A program made the translations under genes and the position numbers. A model generated the notes under the pieces. The model did not search any database. It was not told the DNA's origin and saw nothing but the letters and a program-made list of their open reading frames with translations. 64,000 bases of DNA, taken from NCBI RefSeq assembly GCF_039555335.1, contig NC_092631.1:2914001-2978000 (forward strand), read 5' to 3'. Numbering within the stretch: position 1 is the stretch's first letter; each line of letters opens with the position of its first letter. Source of the stretch: Amphiura filiformis. Its lineage: Eukaryota > Echinodermata > Ophiuroidea > Amphilepidida > Amphiuridae. Shown here piece by piece: positions 8,955 through 53,521 of this stretch.

Positions 8955-9224
8955 TTAATTGCTTAATAAAAGGGACGCTTTAAATTTCTCCAAGGTTGGT
9001 TGCGTTGTGGAAGCAAGGGGTAGTCTATTCCAATCACGAATAGTTCTAGGAAGGAAGGAGTTCTGATATCTGACAGTTCTTGTTTCAATAACTTTGTATG
9101 CATCTGCGGTGAAGTGCCTACTGGAATGATTGGTATCCCTCTGCTGAAGTTTGGTGAATGTGCTGGGGATTCTCCTTGTGGACGAAGTAAAATTGACATA
9201 GTCTGGCAGTTTTTCTTCTCTCAA
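8955..9224 (-). pseudogene. LINE ORF2 C-terminal fragment
   Basis: An 89-residue frame with the conserved tail of jockey/CR1-group reverse transcriptases (TRTVRYQNSFLPRTIRDWN, then LPLASTTQPTLEKFK). It continues the frame at 9221-10063 after a shift near 9225. The stop at 8955 is probably the natural ORF2 end, about 80 bases before the microsatellite tail. Confidence 0.8.
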
Positions 9225-10063
9225 CCAAACTTTCCCACCCCAGCTCTCGGATCATTTTGGTTACACTGGACTTGCGATTTAAAGTCGCCAACAACAAATC
9301 TAGCAGCTCTTCTTTGGACTCTATCTAACATCTGTATACATTTGGACTGGTATTGGTCGGTGTCTGCCGCCGCATAGTCGAGGTGAGGTCGAACCAACGC
9401 CTTGTATGCTTTAGCTTTAGTTTCTTTGCTGCACTGGTAAATATTTCTTTGAAGAAGCCCGAGAATTTTGTTGGCTTTGCTAACGGTGCACCGGTAATTT
9501 GAGTTCCAGGTGAGGTCTTCAGCTATTGTGACGCCAAGATATTTGTGTTCTTGAACTTGAGCAAGGGTTTCACCAAGCATGGTATAATCATGGTGAGATT
9601 TGGTCCTCTTTAACCCAACAGACATGGTGTTACACTTTTTGGGGTTAAAGGTCATCTGCCACTTGGATGCCCATTGACACACATGATTTAGGTCCTGCTG
9701 AAGCTTGATACTATCCTGGTCATTTGCAACCGTTGTATACAAGATTGCATCATCAGCAAATAAGCGTATGTTGCATTGGAGACCCTCAACGATGTCATTG
9801 ATATAAATCAGGAATAACAATGGCCCTAAAACAGTTCCCTGTGGGACTCCTGATATAACTGGATGCCATTTAGATGTTTCCCCGTTGATGACGACTCTTT
9901 GCTGCCGTTGACTCAAGAATGTACCAATCCAATTGAGAGTGTTGTTTCTTATCCCATAGTGATGAAGTTTGGATTTAAGGCGTTCATGGGGCACACAGTC
10001 AAATGCCTTAGTAAAATCTAATATTGCAGCATCTATTTGGTCTGAGTTATCAATACCCTCCAT
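9221..10063 (-). pseudogene. LINE reverse transcriptase, palm and thumb region
   Basis: A 280-residue frame with motif A (AILDFTKAFD), motif B (SGVPQGTVLGPLLFLIYIND), the catalytic motif C (LFADDAILY), motif D (KCNTMSVG) and motif E (HKYLGVTI). All catalytic aspartates are present. It is separated from the upstream frame by a break near 10075 and from the C-terminal block by one near 9225. Confidence 0.9.
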
Positions 10064-10083
10064 CCAATCATTAACAACCTGAA

Positions 10084-10278
10084 TCAGCTGAGTAACGCAT
10101 ACGAATGTCCCTTTCGGAAGCCATGCTGCATTGACGTTAGAATGTCATGCTTATCAAGATGCTTGCTGATTTGAGAGTGAAGAATATGTTCCAACAGTTT
10201 ACACATGATCGACGCCAATGACACCGGACGATAATTTTCGGGCTTTCTCTGGATCCTTTTTGAACAGCGCAGTAACAT
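10084..10278 (-). pseudogene. LINE reverse transcriptase, fingers fragment
   Basis: A 64-residue frame with ENYRPVSLASIMCKLLEHI and QHGFRKGHS, the signatures of RT regions just before motif A. Frame breaks flank it on both sides. Confidence 0.85.
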
Positions 10279-10281
10279 TAG

Positions 10282-12030
10282 CTAGAAGCCAGTCATCTGG
10301 GAGAGTTCCCGTCCCGGGGTTCCCGTATCCAAGGATTGTTGAAACAAGGACGTAAGAACCGGAGCGATTTCCTCCGCTGTTTCTTTCAACATCCGGGCAG
10401 TGATCTCGTCTGGCCCAGAAGCTTTACTGGTATCAAGGTTCCTAAGGAGCTTGAGAACACCTTCATTTCTAATGGTGATATTGTCCATGGTGGGGTAATT
10501 ACTTGGAGTAAATGGAATAACATTGTCCCTTTCAATAGTGAAGACGGAATTGAAATGATCAGCGAGGGCAGCTGCTTTTTCAGAGTCTGAGATTAAAAGC
10601 TTGGTGTCCTTTTTCAAGGTTGGGATGGATGAACTATCCACACGCTTGCTTCTAATGTACTTCCAGAAGGCACGAGGATCTGTCTCCAAATCATCAATAC
10701 TATTTTTAATGTAGTCTGACTCTGCTTTCTTGATGACTTTTTTAACAGTGCGACGAGCGTCTCTGAAATTTTCCCAGTCTGCAGGCGATTGCGATTTTTT
10801 TGCTTTCTTATGGAGCTTATCACGCTTCTTGATCATTTTCCTAATGTTCTTAGTAACCCAGGGAAGACTATTTGATGGTCGCGACATCTTGCTCGGAATG
10901 TTCTTATCTCTGGATTCCAGAATTGTTTCTTTGAATTTTGTATAATTTTCAGAAACAGACTGCAGATTCGGTTTTTCAGCAAAATATTGATCTTTAAAAA
11001 GTTGCATATCTTCCCGCATCTGGTCAAAATTCCCTTTATTTGTTAAGAAGACTTTGCGCCTAGGTTTCTTGAGAAGCTTTGGTTTAGACACAACTGAAGT
11101 AAGCACAACATCGTGATCGCCCAAGCCTGGTCTAACATCACATCTTTGGATTTTAGCAGGCAAGTTAGTCAGGACGAGATCAAGGATATTAGCAGTTGTT
11201 GCTGTAACTCTGGTCGGCTCCTTAGTCAACTGTGCAAGATGAAAGTCGTCGCAGATTTCAAGCATGTGATTTCCATGATGATCACCGGGAGTGGGTGGAT
11301 CCACAAGCCAGTCTGTCTCAGAACAGTTGAAATCACCCGTTAGGATGACAAAAGGCACCGAGTTTTTATGATAGACTTTACCCAAGGATTCCTCAAGCGG
11401 TTTCCAATAATCAACAAGCTTACTTGGTGGTCTGTAGAAGTTCCCAACATAAAGAGATTTAGAGTCCTGAAGATGAATACAAATCCATATTATTTCACAA
11501 TCGGTGTCCATATCCGGGCATGGTGTACTGATGAGGTTTGACTTGACAGCAGTTATAACACCACCTCCCCCACGCTTCCTGTCCTTACGATACACATTAA
11601 AGTGCGCAGGGAATAATTCTTGGGAGGTTATATTATCATCAACCTTAGTCTCAGTAACACAAACAATGTCGGGATTATGCTCATCAATTAGGGCGTGGAA
11701 AGCAGCAACTTTGCCAGTTAATCCCTCTGCATTAATTGTCAAAATGCTAACGTCGCACTTTCCAGAAAATTTGGCTTTAGAATGTCTTAGTTGGCTATTT
11801 TTTTGTTCAGTTTTCTCAGCACCATCAATCATAGGTGATGAACTACTATTCCTGGGTGATTTAACCATGTTAACACTCGATGGAGATGGAACATTGTTTT
11901 CATCGGTGGAATCGAAGGACAGTGAACCGTTACTCGCGTTGAACAAATCAATATTGTCATTATTTGCACTAGTTGTATCAAAAAAAGAGTCATTGAATTT
12001 CAGAATTTCACAGCTGGGGCAATATACCAT
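10282..12030 (-). pseudogene. LINE ORF: endonuclease plus start of reverse transcriptase
   Basis: A 582-residue frame. Residues of about 95-320 form an exonuclease-endonuclease-phosphatase domain: SILTINAEGL (Asn), CVTETK (catalytic Glu), TGDFN, and GLGDHDVV (the SDH-type His). A basic linker (KNIRKMIKKRDKLHKKAKK) leads to the start of the RT (LRNLDTSKASGPDEI). It begins with CPSC, the last zinc-ligand pair of the PHD finger whose first part lies in the overlapping upstream frame. This shows one frameshift near 12020. Confidence 0.9.
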
Positions 12031-12707
12031 TCAAAATCTTCTTCAAGGCTAATGTAATGGTTGTACAAACTATCAGAAACATCAGAGCAGCGTGTATGGG
12101 TCCAATTGCCACACAAATCACATTCCATGGCAGTGTGGGTTTTTGCAACATGTTTAGAACATATCGTGCACGGAAAACGCTGATAAGTGGGACCGGGGTT
12201 TGGGTGAACATTCCCACTTATTAACATGTGCAAAGCAATTAACAACTTGAGTCTTGGCGCAAAAGACTCACGATCACTAACAGTTATTGATCTACATTCC
12301 ACGTAAAAACCACGTAGCATCAGGGATTTTTTGCGCGATTGGTAAAAGACGAATAAGTGACACGAAATAAATTTTGTGTCTCTGTTCAAGCAAGCACTAG
12401 CATAGAGTTCAAAATGGCTTTTGTTTGTTATTGGCACAATGAAGTTGTCCTTTTTCAGCTCAAAGTCAATCAAAGTACAGCTTCCTTCAACTTTAAAATT
12501 TGGAAGCACAATCAGCGAGGGCAATTTTTCAACTGGCGTGGTTTCATATGCCCATACATTGGTGTTTCTTTCCGTTGCAGAATTTAGAAAATTAAACGAT
12601 CCTACCTTGTTCCAGCGCAGGGGCGTGGCACAAAAACCCAACTGCAGGGCCAGCAAAAAAGTGATAAAATAACCATCCATGTTAGCCATCCAACAAAAAT
12701 CAAGCAA
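12000..12707 (-). pseudogene. LINE 5' ORF with 2A-like motif and PHD-like finger
   Basis: A 235-residue frame. A hydrophobic start (ITFLLALQLGFC) is followed by a second hydrophobic stretch and SGNVHPNPGP (12191-12217). That motif resembles the 2A signature D-x-E-x-N-P-G-P but has His in place of the Glu. Next come CTICSK, ECDLCGNWTHTRC and EWY, the first half of a PHD finger. The frame shifts just before the final CPSC. 2A-like and PHD modules are known in APE-type LINEs. Whether this altered 2A still works is unknown. Confidence 0.8.
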
Positions 12708-12960
12708 TAATCGATCACAAAACAGGCTCAGGTGAATTCTCCTCCAAGAAAAACAGCAAAATTTTGATTAAATCCAGGTATCCACGATTGAGTTGAATTT
12801 CCCGCGGTTTGATCCCGTATTGCAATATGGCGGCTGTGAGTTGCGTAGTACACGTAGCACAGGTGTAGTGTAGGCAAGATACTGGTCAAAACAAAACTAT
12901 CTTCAAACAGCAAAAGTCCATTAAAATTGTCCACAGAATTTCACGAAACGTTGCACTAGA

Positions 12961-20804: not shown

Positions 20805-21630
20805 ATGGCGCCGAAAAAAAGAAAGCCTAAGAAGCAACATGATTCAGAGGAAGATGATAAGACAACATCAACAAAGAAAACCAAACCAGAAAAGTCTCAA
20901 GAGAATGGTGATGCTGGTGTAGCCAAGAGACCAAGCAAAAGAAAGACACAACCTTCTGAAGAGAGGGAAGGTATATCATCTCCTCCTCAGGAAAGAGGTA
21001 CCTCACCTCCCAAAAGATCAAGTAAAAGAAAAACACAGCCTGCTCAAGAAGGAGGAGCATTGTCTCCCAAAAGGGCAAGCAAACGAAAGACAATTCCTCC
21101 AGAAGGAGTAGGTGCATCACCTCCCAAAAGAGCAAGCAAAAGAAAGCCACAACCTCCTAAAGAAGGAGGTACATCATCTGATTCATCTCCCAAAAGAGCA
21201 AACAAAAGAAAAGCACAACCTCCTCAAGAAAGAGAAGGTGGAACATCTCCAAAGAAACCTGCAAAGAAAAATAAAGGGACATCTTCAAATCAAGAAGTGA
21301 AGAAAAGGACAAAAGCACCCACCAAAGAACCTGCTAAGAAAGTGAAAAAAGAGGACAAGGAACCTTCAAAGAAAGCATCAAAGACTTCGACCAAGACCAA
21401 CTCAGGAAAAGGGGATGCGAAGGCAGTTTCAAAGAAAGTTGTTAAAACCAAAGGAAAAAAGAAGACAGTAAAGACTGAAGGAGGAGAGGAGGAAGGAGAA
21501 ACTGAAGTGACAAGTACAGTGAAGGAGGAGTTGGGTGAAGACTTAGCTTCTACTGAGTCTGAACAAGGAATGACCAAAATGGTGTGTTCAGAGGGGATGA
21601 AGTTTCTTGGTGCTCATATGGGAATTGCAG
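20805..21630 (+). CDS. apn1: apn1 exon 1: basic N-terminal extension and first barrel strand
   Basis: It encodes 275 residues plus one base. It starts at ATG in GATGGCGCC context and begins with an SV40-like basic cluster (PKKRKPKK). The middle is a degenerate tandem repeat of SPKRASKRK-type units, then Lys/Glu-rich sequence with AKK and KKVKK. The conserved domain begins at residue 265 ([12 protein letters not shown]). The exon ends GCAG|GTTTGT. Reading on past the donor meets a stop at 21644. Confidence 0.93.
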
Positions 21631-24600
21631 GTTTGTTGCCATGACACCATAATGTAGTATACATTTAGTGGGGATGTACACATTCACACACATCTTTGGT
21701 GGGTAACTTTCAAGTTGGGTGGGTCTAAAAGTACCCATTCATCTGACAAATAATAATTTCACTGAGATCAGAATCTGTCACTGACAGTTAGGCTTGTAAC
21801 TTATTAGAATTATTTGCCTATTGGCATGTGTTTTGAAAGTTATGACACATCCCTGATTATTAGAGCTGAATTTTATGTTGCTGCATATAAAAACTTGGTT
21901 GTGTCTTGAGGTAAGAAATCATCAAATTTCTACACTTTTTTTAAAACTTGGAGTCTGAAATATAAGTGAACATTCTCTCTGAAACAAATCTGTGAGAAAT
22001 ATCTCAATGCCGTAAACAATCATAAACATTTTTTTTCTTTCTCTCTTTCTCTCTTTCTCAACCTGAAGGTGGACTTGACAAGGCTGTAATAGGTGCATCC
22101 GAAATTGGAGCCAAATCTTTTGCTCTTTTTCTTCGCTCACAGAGACAGTGGCAAGCCAAACCTTTGGATGATAAGGTATACTAGTGATATTTAATAAGTT
22201 CAGGTTTTGTATGAATGCATGATAAAACCTCAATTGGAAATGGTATGGATGATTTTAGAATTCCAAGCAAAATTTCTTAAAAAGTAATTTTAAAACAAAT
22301 TTAATCAATTTAATGTTCTCAGTTGGATCTTAAAATATAAAAATTCTACCTGGATTCACTGGATTGAAATAAAGTTCAAATGGAATTGAGATAATGGTGT
22401 CATCATATTCAACAGGGATGAGTGTGGAAATTCCAAATGTATTAGCCTCTAACATGGCTATAATAGTGGTGCTGTAGGATGTTTCATGATGTTGACTGGC
22501 TTATACATTATGCAAATTGTAATCTTGTCTGATAAATCGCCACGATGTACCATACAAGATCTAAAGATGGGTGGTATGAGAAGAAAACAACTACTTTATG
22601 CCCATATCATACTAGTATTCGCAGCGTTCAATTAAACAATTGCTAGTCAGCGGCGTAGCTGGGATTTTTCCTGGGGGGGGGGGAGGCAAGCATGTATGGG
22701 GCGGGAGCCCAAACTAGGGGGGCGGGGCCAAATTGACAATTTTGCCAGGCTTATTGATAATAATCGTATGGTATTGCATATCGTATGGATTCCAATATCT
22801 CTCTTTCCCTCCTCTCCCTCTCTCTTCTCTCTTTTTCCTCCTCTCTCTCCCTCCTTTTCCCTCTTTTTTCCTTGCACTAGGGGCGCCATTGTTGCTAGTG
22901 ATCAAGCGCTGCATTGTCGCGTTTGAAAAATCAGTACTAGTATTCAGTTCTGGCTAGCAACATAGCGTCAAAGTAAGCTTGAAGTCATCAACTGCTTGCG
23001 ATTTGATGTTAGGGCATGCTAGCCATCTTATAGACCTGATATTACCAATTATTGCTCTTCCTATAGGCGATGTAATTAAGTTACTTCACAAAGAAAAAAC
23101 ACTGTGCTCCTTGCGATTGCTTACAGGCATAGGAAGCTTGGATTTCGGTATGCAAATCCAACAAAAGTCTCTTAGCCTAATTGTGATCATAATGAACTGA
23201 AATCTGCTGCTAACATTCTTTTTTCCATACAGGTTGCCGAGAAATTCCGTGCAGCATGCAAGGAGCATAAGTTCTCTCCTTGGCATATTTTACCACATGG
23301 TTCATATCTCCTGAATTGTGGCTCACCAAACCCAGAAACACTACAGAAGACAAGAGATACACTCACAGATGAACTGAAGAGATGTGAAAAATTAGGACTG
23401 GCTTTGTACAACTTCCATCCAGGTATCGTATCTATTGATAGCTTCAGTGACAATTCCAGTTTTATCAAAGAATGTAAATTTTGAAGGTTCCAATAATAGT
23501 GTTTAACTTTTTCTGCCCTTTCAGACCCAACCTTAAAGTCATAATGTACGATCTTTTTTCAGAATTTACCTTTATTTTTTTCAAAACCGATTTTTTGGCA
23601 TATTTGTAATACTTACACATGTTCTAACTTAAATCTATGAGCAAACTGTCAAATTCGTCCTATTTGTAGTAAAACGGGACGATTTTCTGTTGGTCCGACA
23701 TAAAGTCATAATTTTTAGATTATGACTTTATGTCGGCCACGATCATAAACCGTAGTCTCAGTACAAAACTAGCTTAGTTACGCTCCCTCCACATGTGGAG
23801 GGAGCGTAACCAAACTGGCCGCTGAGGAGACTAACTCTGAGGCCGCACTCGCTGTCCTAATCCAAATAGTGCGAGATGTTTGAGTGATAGAGGTGAAGTT
23901 TATGATGTTGTTTCTTTGCAAATTCCCAATGTTTTTAATGTTCCGTCAAAATGTATTGGGAACTTTCATAATGATTGCATAAATATCATTTTAGAAGAAA
24001 AATCTAAAAATTTAAAAAGATTGTACATTAAGGCTTTAAAAGTTTGTTGTTATTGCAAAGATTTTATTTTGATTGATGAAAGAGGATGGTCCGATTTCAT
24101 CACATGCTATTTCCACCATGGTTAGACCTTGGCCCTCGCTCCTCATAATGGAGTTTCATTATGTCATATAATTGCATTCACTTTTCATATGAGTGCCAAA
24201 ATTTACCCACTTTCAACACATTTTAGCTTGCAAAAACTTCTTTTAACCCTATTATTTCAGATGGTCAATGAAAAAAAATCCATTGATAGCAAAATCTCAA
24301 TCATGATGTAGAAAAAGTAGGGATGAGATTAACATTGTTGACCACCCTCCTTTAACAATGGCAGTATGTAGGTCTGATGATACCAAATTCTCGCTTCTCT
24401 GTTCAGTTGTAAGAATATATAAATAATTGCTTGGAAAGAAATATCTTCTTTGAGTTGTTGGTTTGTTGGGGAGGGTTCCTCTGAATAAATTAGTTTTAAT
24501 GTATTTTTAGCTGGTGTGTGACCAATAAAGTTGCCATCTTTGTTGTTTTAATATCTACATAATTATAATATATTCCTTATTATAATTTTTTTGGTCATTT

Positions 24601-47680: not shown

Positions 47681-48983
47681 TATAAATCTGGAGGTCACAT
47701 CATCACTTATCATGCTTATTGTAAAAAGTTTGTCCAATGCATATGTGTATTGTTCCCGGGTATTGTCAATACAGTCAAGCAAACAGGTATTATATTTTGA
47801 AAAGGCCGCTATAGTATATTCACAGGGGTGTCTTGAATGGCCAATCATATGGGACATAATCAAATTGCAGTGACTGCTTCCTTTGTTACCACATGTCAGT
47901 CATCTTGTGATTATTGGACCATGTAAACCTGCAAAAAACGAGCCAAAGTGCAGGCCCTATGTTATAAACAAACAATATATTTAATACAAGCAAGCAAATG
48001 GTAATTCAGGAAAGAATAACACCTTGTTAGTCCAAACACAGAGTTCTTCCCTTTCCTGTTACATAACATAATTCATAGTATAAAAGAAAACACAAAAATA
48101 AATACAAAATTAAATAGATACATATTCTACATGAATGGTTGAAAGTCTGTGTACAGGGGATACTCAACAGAAACAAATGTACGCAACAAGTAAAGCAAAA
48201 GCTCAAAGACAAAAAATCATATTCAACAACATCTACTTTTATGAAGTAAATTATGCCAATCATTTTACAGATGTACATACACACTCACCCATCACACACA
48301 CACACCCACCCCCCTGCACACCACTCACACCCTCATTCATAAACTCATTTTTACACAAACAGACACTCAAAGCATATCAAGGCCTATAAGTTTCAAGTTA
48401 AATTGCACAAGTGGTTTGGATTCAAGAAGCAAAAATGTGTGTCACAGTGGCCCATGGAAGATAACAGTAGGCCTACATGCATGTGCATGACTTTCCGGGT
48501 GGTATACTATGAGAAAAAATATGTGCTTTCACCCGATACCAATATCTACTTTTTGATGGGGGTAAAGTAGGGGGGATGATTGGGTTAATCGGGTCACCCA
48601 CCTTTAAAAATAATGTCCAGTATGTATACACCACTGAACTTACCAGGCCAAATTGATGCGCACTGGGAGACTGATGAGGGGGTTTTTTTCGTTTTTTTTT
48701 TTAGTTTTCATGCATTTTATGCATTTAACTGTGAGTTAGGTGGGGAAAGTTTTTTTTAGTGTTGGTGGGGACTGGGGAAAGGTGTATTTTTTTTGCTCAT
48801 GTAGTGGGTGAAGTTTTTTTTTTCAAAAACTTCCTACCCCCATTGAAAATCTAATGGTGCATCCTTAAGTTCCTGGTTTATATTTGATATTTATTTAATC
48901 AGGAAACTATACTTACACTCCCATCATGCTCATGGACTTAGCACTCCATTTGCACTTTTGTTACCAGCCATGACAGGTCCTAT
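47681..48983. other. region downstream of the kinase gene
   Basis: A CA-rich stretch at 48277-48330 and G/T-rich sequence at 48540-48850. TTTATT at about 48890 (AATAAA on the minus strand) is a candidate polyadenylation signal for the kinase gene. No other gene seen. Confidence 0.4.
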
Positions 48984-49792
48984 TTATTCTAAACTAAATA
49001 TTTTAATGTGAGGTAATCCACTCAGAGCAAGTTGGAATACTCCCTCTGATGTGACTGACAACCCTTTATTATAATACTGCACTGCACCCACATCATCAAT
49101 GACACATCCAGTGTTGTGATACTTTGGTGTGCCATTCCCGTCCCAGGTATATTTAAATACACGCCCCTTCCTATCCCCCACATTATAACATGCAGCATAT
49201 AGATGCCTTGCATCATTCCTATAGGATACAGCTTTAAATCTCCAACCATCAGGTGGTTTTATCCTACACAGATCCTGACCCATATCTCCCATTGCTTTGA
49301 TTACCATCTCATGGTGATCCATTACCACCAGGTAATCTGTACTGATAGTGAGATCACATGGGTTGAAACTAAGGTCTACAATCTTTTGCTGTGTAAACCC
49401 TGGCATACTACACACTACCAATGCATGCCTATCATATAAACCTATCACAGCTGTATTGACATTAGCTACAATACACAATGGCTGCACATGAACCTGATAT
49501 TTCTTTAAATAGTTTGATGCTTTGTGGGATGGGAACTGATACACATAGGGGTCTTCGTAGCATATCACCAATATGCAAGATGATGGCATAGACTCACTCA
49601 CTGCTACATCAAATGGCCACACAATACCTCTCCACTCATCAGATGTCAGGGTATACAGTAGATGTGTCTCTTCCCTGCTTACATGATGCACCTCCACACT
49701 GTCACCTCTACAGATAGCCAGACGGTCACTATCCACAAAATGAAGTGTTCTGCCCCAAGAATCAATCTCATGCTTCAATTTCCACTCCAACC
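48984..49792 (-). CDS. kinase-propeller gene, exon encoding the beta-propeller
   Basis: Starts after a TTTACATTTCAG acceptor with LEWKLKHEIDSWG and ends KIFSLE then TAA (48984-48986). Blades are not obvious WD40 repeats. The diagnostic strings match TRIM-type propellers. The stop overlaps an AATAAA on the minus strand. Confidence 0.88.
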
Positions 49793-52700
49793 CTGAAATG
49801 TAAAATGATATTATACCATACACAGCTCAGTGCAATAATAGTAGCTAATAGTGAACAGATATATATATGAATGAATTTATGAAACATCAAGAAGCAATAA
49901 ATAGGTGAATCCTGAGGGGGTCATTCACTCATTAGAGCAATAATGTGCGATTTGCAAAGATAGATTTTTATTTTTTCCCACTAAATGTTAGTTTTCACTA
50001 TATGTCTTCTTTTAACTGCAGGCCGAACAAATAAGGTATAACAATAACAATCGCATTTCATTTCAGTTTCTATTGTGTATCAGTGTGTCAATCTGATGAA
50101 CATCCTGTAGCTTCATAAGGGACCCTTCAATGTTTACGCAGAGGGAAATCTGATTTTTTGAGGTCTTGAGGGGGGAATCTGAATTTTTTATTTGACCCAC
50201 GAGGGGGAATATTACGTTTTAATTGAGAAAAAGAGGAAAACAAAGGGGAATCCGAAATTTTTTTCTGCGGATGAGAGGGGGAACAAAAATATTTTTATCA
50301 AAACTCCCACTCTCCCTGGCATAAATATTGAACAGTCCCTAAATAAGACATATATCATAATGACTAATTGTAATACATGCATACTTTATAATTATAATAC
50401 ATCAATTCTATACTTTATATATAAATCTAAACCCCAGGGATCCTCCATGTTTATTCAAAACTCTTATATTTTACTGTAATTAAAGTACATCTACTGTAAA
50501 GCAATGTTACTGTAATTAAAGCCACTACATTATGTAACATGGGAAAACGTAGTAAATCGCACATTATTTTTTGGTGATTTTAGCTGATTGATCAAAAAAA
50601 TTGCGTCGGCAATTTTAGCTGATTGATCAAAATTTGAAACAATTTTGGGAAATTGACCTCTTTGCTGTGATTCATCAAAATTTATCATTATTCGTAGTGA
50701 TCATTCACAATTTAGCATAGTTTTAGGCAATTTGCTGTATAATTTCCAGCACTTTTGTAGATTTTAAGCTTTCTTAGCAGATTTTCGTCAATTTTAGCCG
50801 ATTGATCAAAATCTATCATTCGTAGTGATTTAGCATAATTTTAGGCAATTTACTGTAATTTCCAGCAATTGTTGATTTTGGGCGATTTCCCGTTAATTCC
50901 CATGTGACATGGGGCCTTAATACTCCCAGATCATTTGACATGTAAGTAAAATCACTCAGGTTACCGCAAGTAAGAAAAATAGAACAAAATTGGAGGGTGC
51001 ACAAAAATGACATTTTCACTTATTCGCCCAAACTGGTTTGAAATATGGGCCATATTTTCCACTCACGGAATCTCCAGGCAGCCAACATTAAGGAAAGTGT
51101 CAATTTTGGGCTTCAACTTCTGGCTTTACTACAGCGCTCTATGGACAACAATGATTTCAAATGTTTTTTTCCGGAAATCTTTCCTCTGGCGAAAAAAAAA
51201 TCATTCCCGTTTCAAGTTTTACAACGAGAAAGCCCATATTACTTTTGGAGTTGGAGATAAAAAAAATAATCAAAATATACAATTTGCAGTTGTGTGATCC
51301 AGAGTGCAGGCCAGGTGTGTGCTCAATGTGCATAGCTGCATACACAGCTCATGTATAAGCCTTTTTGAAATATGGCGGGCACAAAAGGAGAGGGCGTACT
51401 TTGAAGTAATCTTTTGTCAGCTGAGAAGCATACAAAAGATTACTTCAAAGTACGCACTCTCCTTTTGTGCCCGCCATATTTCAAAAAGGCTTATATAAAT
51501 CCCAGCATTAAAACCAGGTCAGTTTAACCACAGTGTTGTGTGTTCCACAATGCGGTGTGTGTGTGCTCAATGTGTGTTAGTAGCTGCATGCATACACAGC
51601 TAAATTTATATAGCTCCCAGTATTAAAACCGGATCATTTTAACCACATGTGTGAGTTTTTACATGTTACATTTTACATGTTAAATCATCCGGCTTATCGC
51701 AAGTAAGAGCTAATTAAAGCACTTCTGGCTTAGTCTTTCACAGGATATTGAAGTAACCATTGGATAAAGTAGAAATTCAAGAAAATTAAGGGCATCACTG
51801 TGAGCAAATCACACATATTGGCAGCTATCTTGTGTTATTCACAATCGACCCCAGTTTGCACCTCTAACAGATCTTCAAGACCAACAGTTCACCAGTTTTG
51901 ACTTTGGTCTAGATAAAGGGGGAATTTGACCAGACATTTTGCTATATTAATGTATCCAAAGGTCCACAGAAATTAATGAGGTGTCACTGGAGTTGGAATA
52001 GTCTTAGTTCTATGTCTTTATATGGTTCCTCACATGATGATATCATTTCCCAGATGATGATTCCAAAAGCATATATAGCAGCTTTTGGTTACAGTACATG
52101 CAAGATTGCAATTCAAAAAATCTCTGGTGCTAGCCATTATACACTCCCTCTTACACTTTCTGTTGTTTATAGTACTGATAATGTGTTCAGCAAAAACCAC
52201 AGTTATATAATAAAGCAAGATAGGTTATATTACTCACCATTATCAAGTTCATGTGTGACATTTAAACAGGTAGGCGTTGGTCTGTATTCACGCCACACAC
52301 GTCTCACAATTTCACTGCTTTTTGGTCTCTGTGTGCGGTCTTGATGCCAGCATTGCTCCATCAGTTCTCTCAAGAATTGGGGACAATCATCAGGAATCTT
52401 TGGACGGAGACTATTTGCCATAACTTGATAGATCACCCTCTCGGGTCGAAAGCCTTTATACGGTTCCTCACATGATACCATTTCCCAAACGATGATTCCA
52501 AAAGCATATATAGCAGCTTTTGGAGAAAGTATTTCATCTTTGAAAATCTCTGGTGCCTGCCATTTCACACTTCCTTTGTGGGCACTTCTTGTGGTCTTGG
52601 TACTGGTAAGGTCTTGCGCAATACCAAAATCACAAATCTTTAAGACATCATCAGCCATTATGATGCAATTGGGCGATTTCAAATCGCAATGCGCCACATC

Positions 52701-53063
52701 ATTCTTCTCAAGGTAGTTAACTCCGCAAGCCAGGTGATAGATCCACTGTTGAAGGAGAGTTTTAGGAAGCTTGTCTCTATCTTTGAGATAGCCATCCAAA
52801 GATCCCTTCGCGGCATATTCAGTTATAATCACTACATGTTCTTTCTCCATAACAGCATCATAATACTTGATAATGTTTTTATGATCTAGTCTCTTGAGGA
52901 ATTCAATCTCTCGTTTATGTTTCTCTGATATTTCTCCTTCAAATCTGATCTTCTTTGCGGCAGCGTCAATGGTGCCAAATTCTTTAGACTTCCATGTGAC
53001 TCTGTAGACTGTACCACTGGCTCCAAACCCTAAACGTTCATGATAAGTCAAATTAGCACCCAT
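48984..53063 (-). CDS. TKL/MLK-like protein kinase fused to a TRIM-type beta-propeller, 2 coding exons
   Basis: Exons 53063-52238 and 49792-48984 join in phase 1 (AATG|GG) and give 544 residues. Residues 1-275 are a kinase domain most like MLK/ZAK MAP3Ks: glycine loop GFGASGTV (12-19), Lys37, alpha-C Glu54, HCDLKSPN (Asp127, Asn132), DFG (145-147), APE (170-172). The HRD Arg is Cys126 and the normally invariant subdomain IX Asp is Ala184 (KAAIYAFG). Residues of about 276-544 resemble the C-terminal beta-propeller of invertebrate TRIM2/3/56-like proteins (PCDLTIS, RIKPPDGWRFKAV, TWDGNGTP, GLSVTSEGV). Cytosolic signalling or immune sensing is inference. An AG at 53082-53080 before the ATG suggests a 5' non-coding exon upstream. 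Confidence 0.88.
50575..50890. repeat. degenerate tandem repeats, TTTTAGCTGATTGATCAAAA units
   Basis: ATTTTAGCTGATTGATCAAA occurs at about 50578, 50613 and (as GCCGATTGATC) 50795. The longer block TTTAGCATAGTTTTAGGCAA recurs near 50826. Imperfect 35- and 150-200-bp periodicities. Confidence 0.65.
51310..51660. repeat. tandem duplication interrupted by a palindrome
   Basis: GTGTGCTCAATGTG and ATACACAGCT occur near 51315 and 51565. TCCCAGCATTAAAACC (near 51500) recurs as TCCCAGTATTAAAACC (near 51620). The first unit is split by the palindrome at 51356-51495; the second is not. Confidence 0.7.
51356..51495. repeat. 140-bp near-perfect palindrome
   Basis: Arms of about 62 bp (ATAAGCCTTTTTGAAATATG at the left outer end, CATATTTCAAAAAGGCTTAT at the right) with about one mismatch and a 16-base loop (CAGCTGAGAAGCATAC). 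Both ends lie in the duplicated block above. A very recent fold-back insertion or miRNA-like hairpin source. Confidence 0.88.
52005..52205 (-). pseudogene. decayed duplicate of part of the kinase exon
   Basis: Matches the exon at about 52450-52620: GGTTCCTCACATGAT, the identical ATGATTCCAAAAGCATATAT with AGCAGCTTTTGG, then AATCTCTGGTGC and CACTCCCTC-like sequence. It covers kinase subdomains VIII-IX, including the Ala184 position. Frameshifts and stops break it. It lies in the intron about 445 bp from its source. Confidence 0.82.
52238..53063 (-). CDS. kinase-propeller gene, exon encoding the kinase domain
   Basis: 275 codons plus one base on the minus strand. It starts MGANLTYHERLG after an acceptor at 53080 and ends VTHELDN with a GTGAGT donor. 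The entire catalytic domain lies in this single exon, which is unusual for metazoan kinases and would fit a retro-derived or compacted module. Confidence 0.9.
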
Positions 53064-53079
53064 GGCTTAACATCTTGTT

Positions 53080-53521
53080 CTGAAAATATGATGATATTAG
53101 CTGGTTAATTTGAGAAACAATGCTGCCAAATTATTTACATTAAATAATACTAACCGATAGATAAGATGATGATAGTCGTGCGCAAGTAAAATGACATACT
53201 GACTAAAGATAAGTATTTACCAAATTATTTGTTTCTTTAGCTGCATTACAAATGTGTCACCATAATAAGAAGTAATAACAGGAGTACTGTGACATATGAA
53301 GTTAAATGAAATTAAACATAAGTTAATCAAACTTACCAAAAAGTTGACTTTTAGTAAGTATAGTTGTGAAATTCTGTTGGCAAATTCCCTACCAAAATTT
53401 GATAAGAGCAAGCTATGAAGTGGACCTTGAACTTAATGTAGAAATAGAAATAGTTTAAGCACCCAGAATTTGCCATAGTCTGGTGTTAGCTTTTGTAATC
53501 AAATACAGTTGTAGAGTCAAT
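53080..53521. other. upstream region of the kinase gene
   Basis: Probable 5' intron. AT-rich, no coding evidence. Confidence 0.4.

Follow-up and report, generated by a model that had tools for sequence, protein, structure and literature searches.

Does a stretch of Amphiura filiformis DNA on contig NC_092631.1 (positions 2,914,001 to 2,978,000, a window of 64,000 nucleotides) encode a single protein in which a kinase is followed by a beta-propeller, and what would such a propeller be related to? An initial annotation had proposed such a fusion from two exons on the minus strand, running from 53063 to 48984 in the coordinates of the whole stretch. The explanation to which we give slightly better than even chances is a two-exon animal gene encoding a 544-residue, MLK-like (TKL) non-RD kinase with a C-terminal propeller, which would dock a binding partner and restrain the kinase. 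The gene model consists of the following parts.

52238..53063, minus strand: exon 1, kinase (residues 1-275 and the first base of codon 276)
49793..52237, minus strand: intron, GT-AG, phase 1, 2445 bases, read from the sequence
48984..49792, minus strand: exon 2, probable six-bladed beta-propeller (from the second base of codon 276 through residue 544 and the stop)

Exon 1 opens with an ATG, and an in-frame TAA is the second codon upstream of it. The donor reads ATG/GTGAGT, with 52237 as the first intron base, and the acceptor TTTCAG/GG, with 49793 as the last. Exon 2, whose first base is 49792, is directly preceded by TTTACATTTCAG and closes with a TAA ending at 48984. Joined in phase, the two exons give 544 residues and a stop.

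Both exons have a coding character. Their stop-to-stop open reading frames (ORFs) comprise 278 and 280 codons, respectively; across 100 Markov-1 resamplings of the entire window, the longest ORF has 198 codons. GC content by codon position is 0.495/0.367/0.378 in exon 1 and nearly equal in exon 2 (0.504/0.369/0.381); in the intron it is flat across the three positions (0.345/0.348/0.361). A codon model derived from either exon ranks the proposed frame best of six in the other exon, a value that in each direction is attained by 5 out of 1000 segments drawn at random from the window, some of which may cover real exons. Exon 2 is coding, beyond what chance would give.

Very probably, exon 1 and exon 2 form one fused protein, as initially annotated. 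This model, from which we infer the splicing itself, is backed by the phase, by the splice sites, by codon statistics common to both exons, and by an exon 2 that has no Met near its start. It is quite unlikely that two proteins are encoded instead, i.e., a kinase of 277 residues ending by read-through into the intron, and an exon 2 that belongs to another gene or to another upstream exon. Such a division would suit the 2.4 kb between the two parts on the minus strand and the stop at codon 278, which closes the kinase frame just beyond the donor; besides, the fusion is predicted from genomic sequence. It is at odds, however, with a good donor and a good acceptor that are in phase, with codon statistics that are equal in both exons, and with an exon 2 frame in which no Met occurs earlier than exon 2 residue 69. 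Furthermore, the ORF lists and pattern scans, the only means used, revealed no additional coding exon in the vicinity.

Kinase domain and its copy in the intron

Residues 6-255 match Pfam PF07714 (PK_Tyr_Ser-Thr) with an E-value of 3.7e-62 and 210.4 bits. A search of the PDB sequences with the kinase returned 911 sequences at E<=1e-20, and the ranking given here is drawn from the best 60 of these 911. The top single-domain matches, at about 150 bits, are the MLK-type MAP3Ks ZAK (MAP3K20, 153 bits) and DLK (MAP3K12, 151 bits), followed by a reconstructed SRC-ABL ancestor (143 bits), CTR1 (142 bits), MLK4 (140 bits), and TAK1 (133 bits). First in this ranking, with 172 bits drawn from two domains of 85 bits each, stands a tandem EGFR construct. 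The kinase motifs are located as follows.

residues 12-17: G-loop
residues 34-38: AAAKK with the motif Lys
within residues 50-56: alpha-C Glu
residues 125-127: HCD, inside HCDLKSPN (125-132)
residues 145-147: DFG
residues 170-172: APE
residues 182-189: alpha-F segment KAAIYAFG

The catalytic Asp and Asn, the Gly-loop, the Lys, DFG, and APE are all kept. Judged by these motifs and matches, exon 1 encodes a complete protein kinase of the TKL/MLK-like kind and has its chief catalytic motifs, in agreement with the first assignment. Unlike ZAK, which has HRD and an alpha-F Asp, the predicted kinase carries HCD at residues 125-127 and an Ala within KAAIYAFG at the aligned positions. The Arg before the catalytic Asp is absent, and with HCD in place of HRD the kinase is therefore of the non-RD type.

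The intron of the gene contains a further piece of kinase sequence.

52016..52193, minus strand: incomplete second copy of the kinase exon, interrupted by stops and lying in the gene's own intron, identified by tblastn and blastn

In case of tblastn, the copy extends from 52166 to 52017 with 66% identity (E 6e-13) and includes stops; in case of blastn, 74% DNA identity was observed over 181 columns (52193-52016), corresponding to bases 443-610 of the kinase exon. A broken copy in this place indicates that a kinase of this type has been duplicated locally. Together with HCD for HRD and the Ala at the alpha-F Asp position, the copy could mean that the gene, one of a duplicated kinase family, is decaying or inactive, whether as a recent pseudogene or as a pseudokinase serving as a scaffold. 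We consider this improbable, given that both exons are open across 544 codons and that the catalytic Asp and Asn as well as the DFG, APE, and Lys motifs are preserved. Moreover, KAAIYAFG is also present in the intron copy, so the Ala is probably older than the duplication and not a sign of decay in this copy.

Fold and origin of exon 2

The exon 2 domain comprises 268 residues and is separated from the kinase by a linker of about 30 residues. Sequence comparisons yielded no relatives: no family was matched in Pfam up to E 10 or in NCBIfam up to E 1 (HMMER filters drop most weak matches), and no PDB sequence up to E 10. Searches for related loci in viral contigs and in genome contigs gave 3 and 11 pattern matches, respectively, none of which was confirmed by tblastn. 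Filing exon 2 as a CNH or WD40 domain was set aside, as a sequence match to either is lacking in Pfam up to E 10.

Two structure models of the domain were available, both of low confidence. Among their Foldseek neighbours, 25 of 50 rows for the first model name recognised propellers, the other 25 not saying, and 19 of 50 rows do so for the second. The propellers in both lists come from unrelated families. No neighbour of either model reaches E<=0.001; the citron-homology domain of HPK1 (8eec) occurs at rank 49 of the first list with a non-significant E of 0.076, and row 41 of the second list, the flippase 7kya_A, is not a propeller. An NHL structure is not named among the neighbours listed for either model, an absence that is no evidence against NHL.

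Internal repetition was not observed by self-alignment of exon 2 (24 of 60 shuffles score as high). The autocorrelation of beta-propensity rises weakly near lags 10-11, 26-28, 38-41, and 49-51, and with z<=2.6 over 62 uncorrected lags this was not counted. Six segments of 46, 45, 40, 40, 51, and 35 residues, set by eye, have a common weak profile that is attained by 1 of 40 within-segment shuffles, a figure biased by the choice of boundaries by eye.

Exon 2 is thus likely, although not proven, to be a beta-propeller, probably a six-bladed one, as far as the models indicate. The propeller of the initial annotation agrees with the propeller-rich neighbour lists, whereas no neighbour at E<=0.001 and no family or PDB sequence match accompanies it; likewise, the structure prediction then suggested for the C-terminal part, in view of a six-bladed fold, returned these lists from models of low confidence. 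Alternatively, exon 2 may be an all-beta domain of another kind, the structural matches arising from beta meanders in a poor model. The low confidence of the models, the lack of a Foldseek match at E<=0.001 and the lack of a sequence repeat would fit this alternative, but it appears unlikely in the face of two neighbour lists rich in propellers of unrelated families and of the weak profile common to the six segments, their boundary bias included.

If the propeller is accepted, its origin has to be considered. The parallel proposed at first was to the TRIM-NHL proteins and TRIM56, with a similar-sized C-terminal propeller but a kinase instead of RING, B-box, and coiled coil. Among these proteins, TRIM56 is described as a distantly related member, the NHL and NHL-like domains being 19-41% identical (PMC9634614). 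TRIM56 is absent from the 60 PDB rows listed out of 119, and the sequence comparison covers TRIM71, Thin, and Lin41. The NHL signal in exon 2 is not significant. Compared by hhalign to the solved NHL domains of TRIM71, Thin, and Lin41, exon 2 reached a probability of 0.62%; its score was attained by 9 of 100 shuffles and exceeded by that of the kinase exon (23.4 vs. 18.2). A hidden Markov model (HMM) of a single NHL blade, built from 16 blades, scored -0.3 bits over the whole of exon 2, a value attained by 38 of 500 shuffles, and its best domain was attained by 54 of 500. RING and B-box patterns were found in none of the six unspliced window frames (0 and 0), although motifs interrupted by introns would escape such a scan. 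Thus a propeller of the TRIM2/3/56 type, as first suggested, was not recovered by Pfam, hhalign or the single-blade HMM, and a TRIM origin of exon 2 is not supported by these sequence tests.

Nevertheless, capture of a TRIM propeller (NHL or TRIM56-like) by exon shuffling, in which the kinase replaced RING, B-box, and coiled coil and TRIM-type target recognition was kept, is compatible with the kinase-propeller explanation. Exon 2 would suit an NHL domain both in its length (268 residues) and in its six segments, drawn by eye at 35-51 residues each; the last of them aligns with a TRIM71 NHL blade (26% over 27 columns). Weighed against the hhalign, HMM, Pfam, and pattern results above, we regard such a capture as possible, at somewhat below even chances.

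Known architectures and a putative mechanism

A kinase followed by a C-terminal propeller is uncommon, but not in itself a new arrangement. As with the model presented here, LRRK2 and the Roco proteins have a TKL kinase and then a C-terminal propeller, of the WD40 type; they are very large, with LRR-Roc-COR before the kinase, in contrast to the 544 residues of the present model. ZAK and DLK, the best single-domain matches among the PDB sequences listed, carry leucine-zipper, SAM or other regions and are not known to have a propeller. In the MAP4K proteins the kinase domain is of the STE20 type, unlike the TKL/MLK-like kinase found here, and the CNH sequence family of their propeller was not detected in exon 2 by Pfam up to E 10. 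In the part of the literature drawn on here, MAP4Ks are described as an N-terminal kinase with a C-terminal seven-bladed citron-homology propeller, which in HPK1 (MAP4K1) binds the kinase domain, the binding correlating with negative regulation, and helps to dock the substrate SLP76 (PMC11066036). The HPK1 propeller was, according to this source, not predictable from sequence before AlphaFold, a likeness to the propeller predicted here, which also follows the kinase and whose sequence does not reveal the fold (PMC11066036). MAP4Ks differ in their proline-rich interdomain segment and in a citron-homology domain of 340-354 residues, compared to a linker of about 30 and a domain of 268 residues in the present case (PMC11066036).

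A bacterial counterpart is given by the Mycobacterium tuberculosis kinase gi|2078052 (Mbk), for which the order kinase, transmembrane segment, and NHL repeats is reported, NHL repeats after the kinase being noted for a Deinococcus radiodurans kinase as well (PMC1262709, in the part consulted). In these cases the kinase is bacterial, and in the M. tuberculosis protein a transmembrane segment lies between the domains; none is apparent by eye in the protein predicted here. Mbk we take to be PknD, the name under which the NHL chain 1rwi is found in the PDB.

Since MAP4Ks and the M. tuberculosis kinase have such an order (PMC11066036 and PMC1262709), the plan is known already, and the earlier remark that no standard family shows it was too strong if the order meant is that of a kinase and then a C-terminal propeller. 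LRRK2 conforms to the plan as well. The novelty lies in combining a non-RD kinase of the MLK-like type with a short probable propeller that matches no family. A description of an MLK-like kinase with a C-terminal propeller was not found among the listed titles and abstract openings of open-licence papers on kinases with NHL or propeller domains in sea urchin, echinoderm, amphioxus, or hemichordate.

By analogy to the citron-homology propeller of HPK1, the propeller most likely restrains the kinase by direct contact and docks a ligand, a partner or a substrate. Binding to the propeller would free or recruit the kinase, which would then serve a stress or immune pathway as an enzyme of the MAP3K type. 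Such a protein could work as a sensor switch. A cytoplasmic location, the docking, the autoinhibition, and the pathway are what we infer for this protein. An innate immune role is conceivable, with the non-RD HCD motif as a small point in favour (PMC8463890, in the part consulted), and this catalytic loop makes it a testable idea. If fusion and fold hold, an animal lineage would couple propeller recognition directly to a MAP3K-like kinase, i.e., by a short path from recognition to signalling, and the MAP4K parallel offers a concrete mechanism, in which the propeller would hold back the kinase and provide a docking site for its substrate. It is tempting to speculate, though we hold it rather unlikely, that a new animal family exists of MLK-like kinases that are soluble, non-RD, and each equipped with a ligand-binding propeller, acting as one-polypeptide cytosolic sensors in which TRIM-like recognition is wired to phosphorylation and not to ubiquitination, and expanding, in the manner of immune receptors, through local duplication.

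Gene ends, intron, and other features of the window

Three further features were read from the sequence of the gene and its borders.

48983..48988, minus strand: AATAAA overlapping the stop codon, with a further ATTAAA beginning at 48899
53064..53086, minus strand: candidate acceptor TTTTCAG (53086-53080) and stub of a 5' untranslated region before the ATG
51354..51495: palindrome in the intron with arms of 69 nt, 96% complementary and 4 nt apart

The palindrome looks like a foldback element. With a TAA upstream of the kinase, at 53069-53067 in its frame, the protein has to begin at the ATG, except where splicing uses an acceptor closer to it. In a different frame, an upstream ORF of six codons (53053-53073, minus strand) runs across the start codon of the kinase; should the candidate acceptor at 53080 be genuine, this ORF might act as a brake on translation. 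The N-terminus MGANLT (53046-53063, minus strand) presumably conforms to the N-myristoylation pattern, by which the kinase might be anchored at membranes.

Rfam and tRNA scans of the whole window gave 0 matches each. A LINE-type retroelement is located at 9221-12767 on the minus strand, with a PHD finger (PF00628), an endonuclease (PF03372/PF14529), and a reverse transcriptase (PF00078) in three frames. An ORF at 23176-23481 on the plus strand matches PF01261 (AP_endonuc_2, xylose isomerase-like TIM barrel) with an E-value of 2.2e-11. A Lys-rich ORF nearby (20805-21644), without Pfam match, may be part of the same gene.
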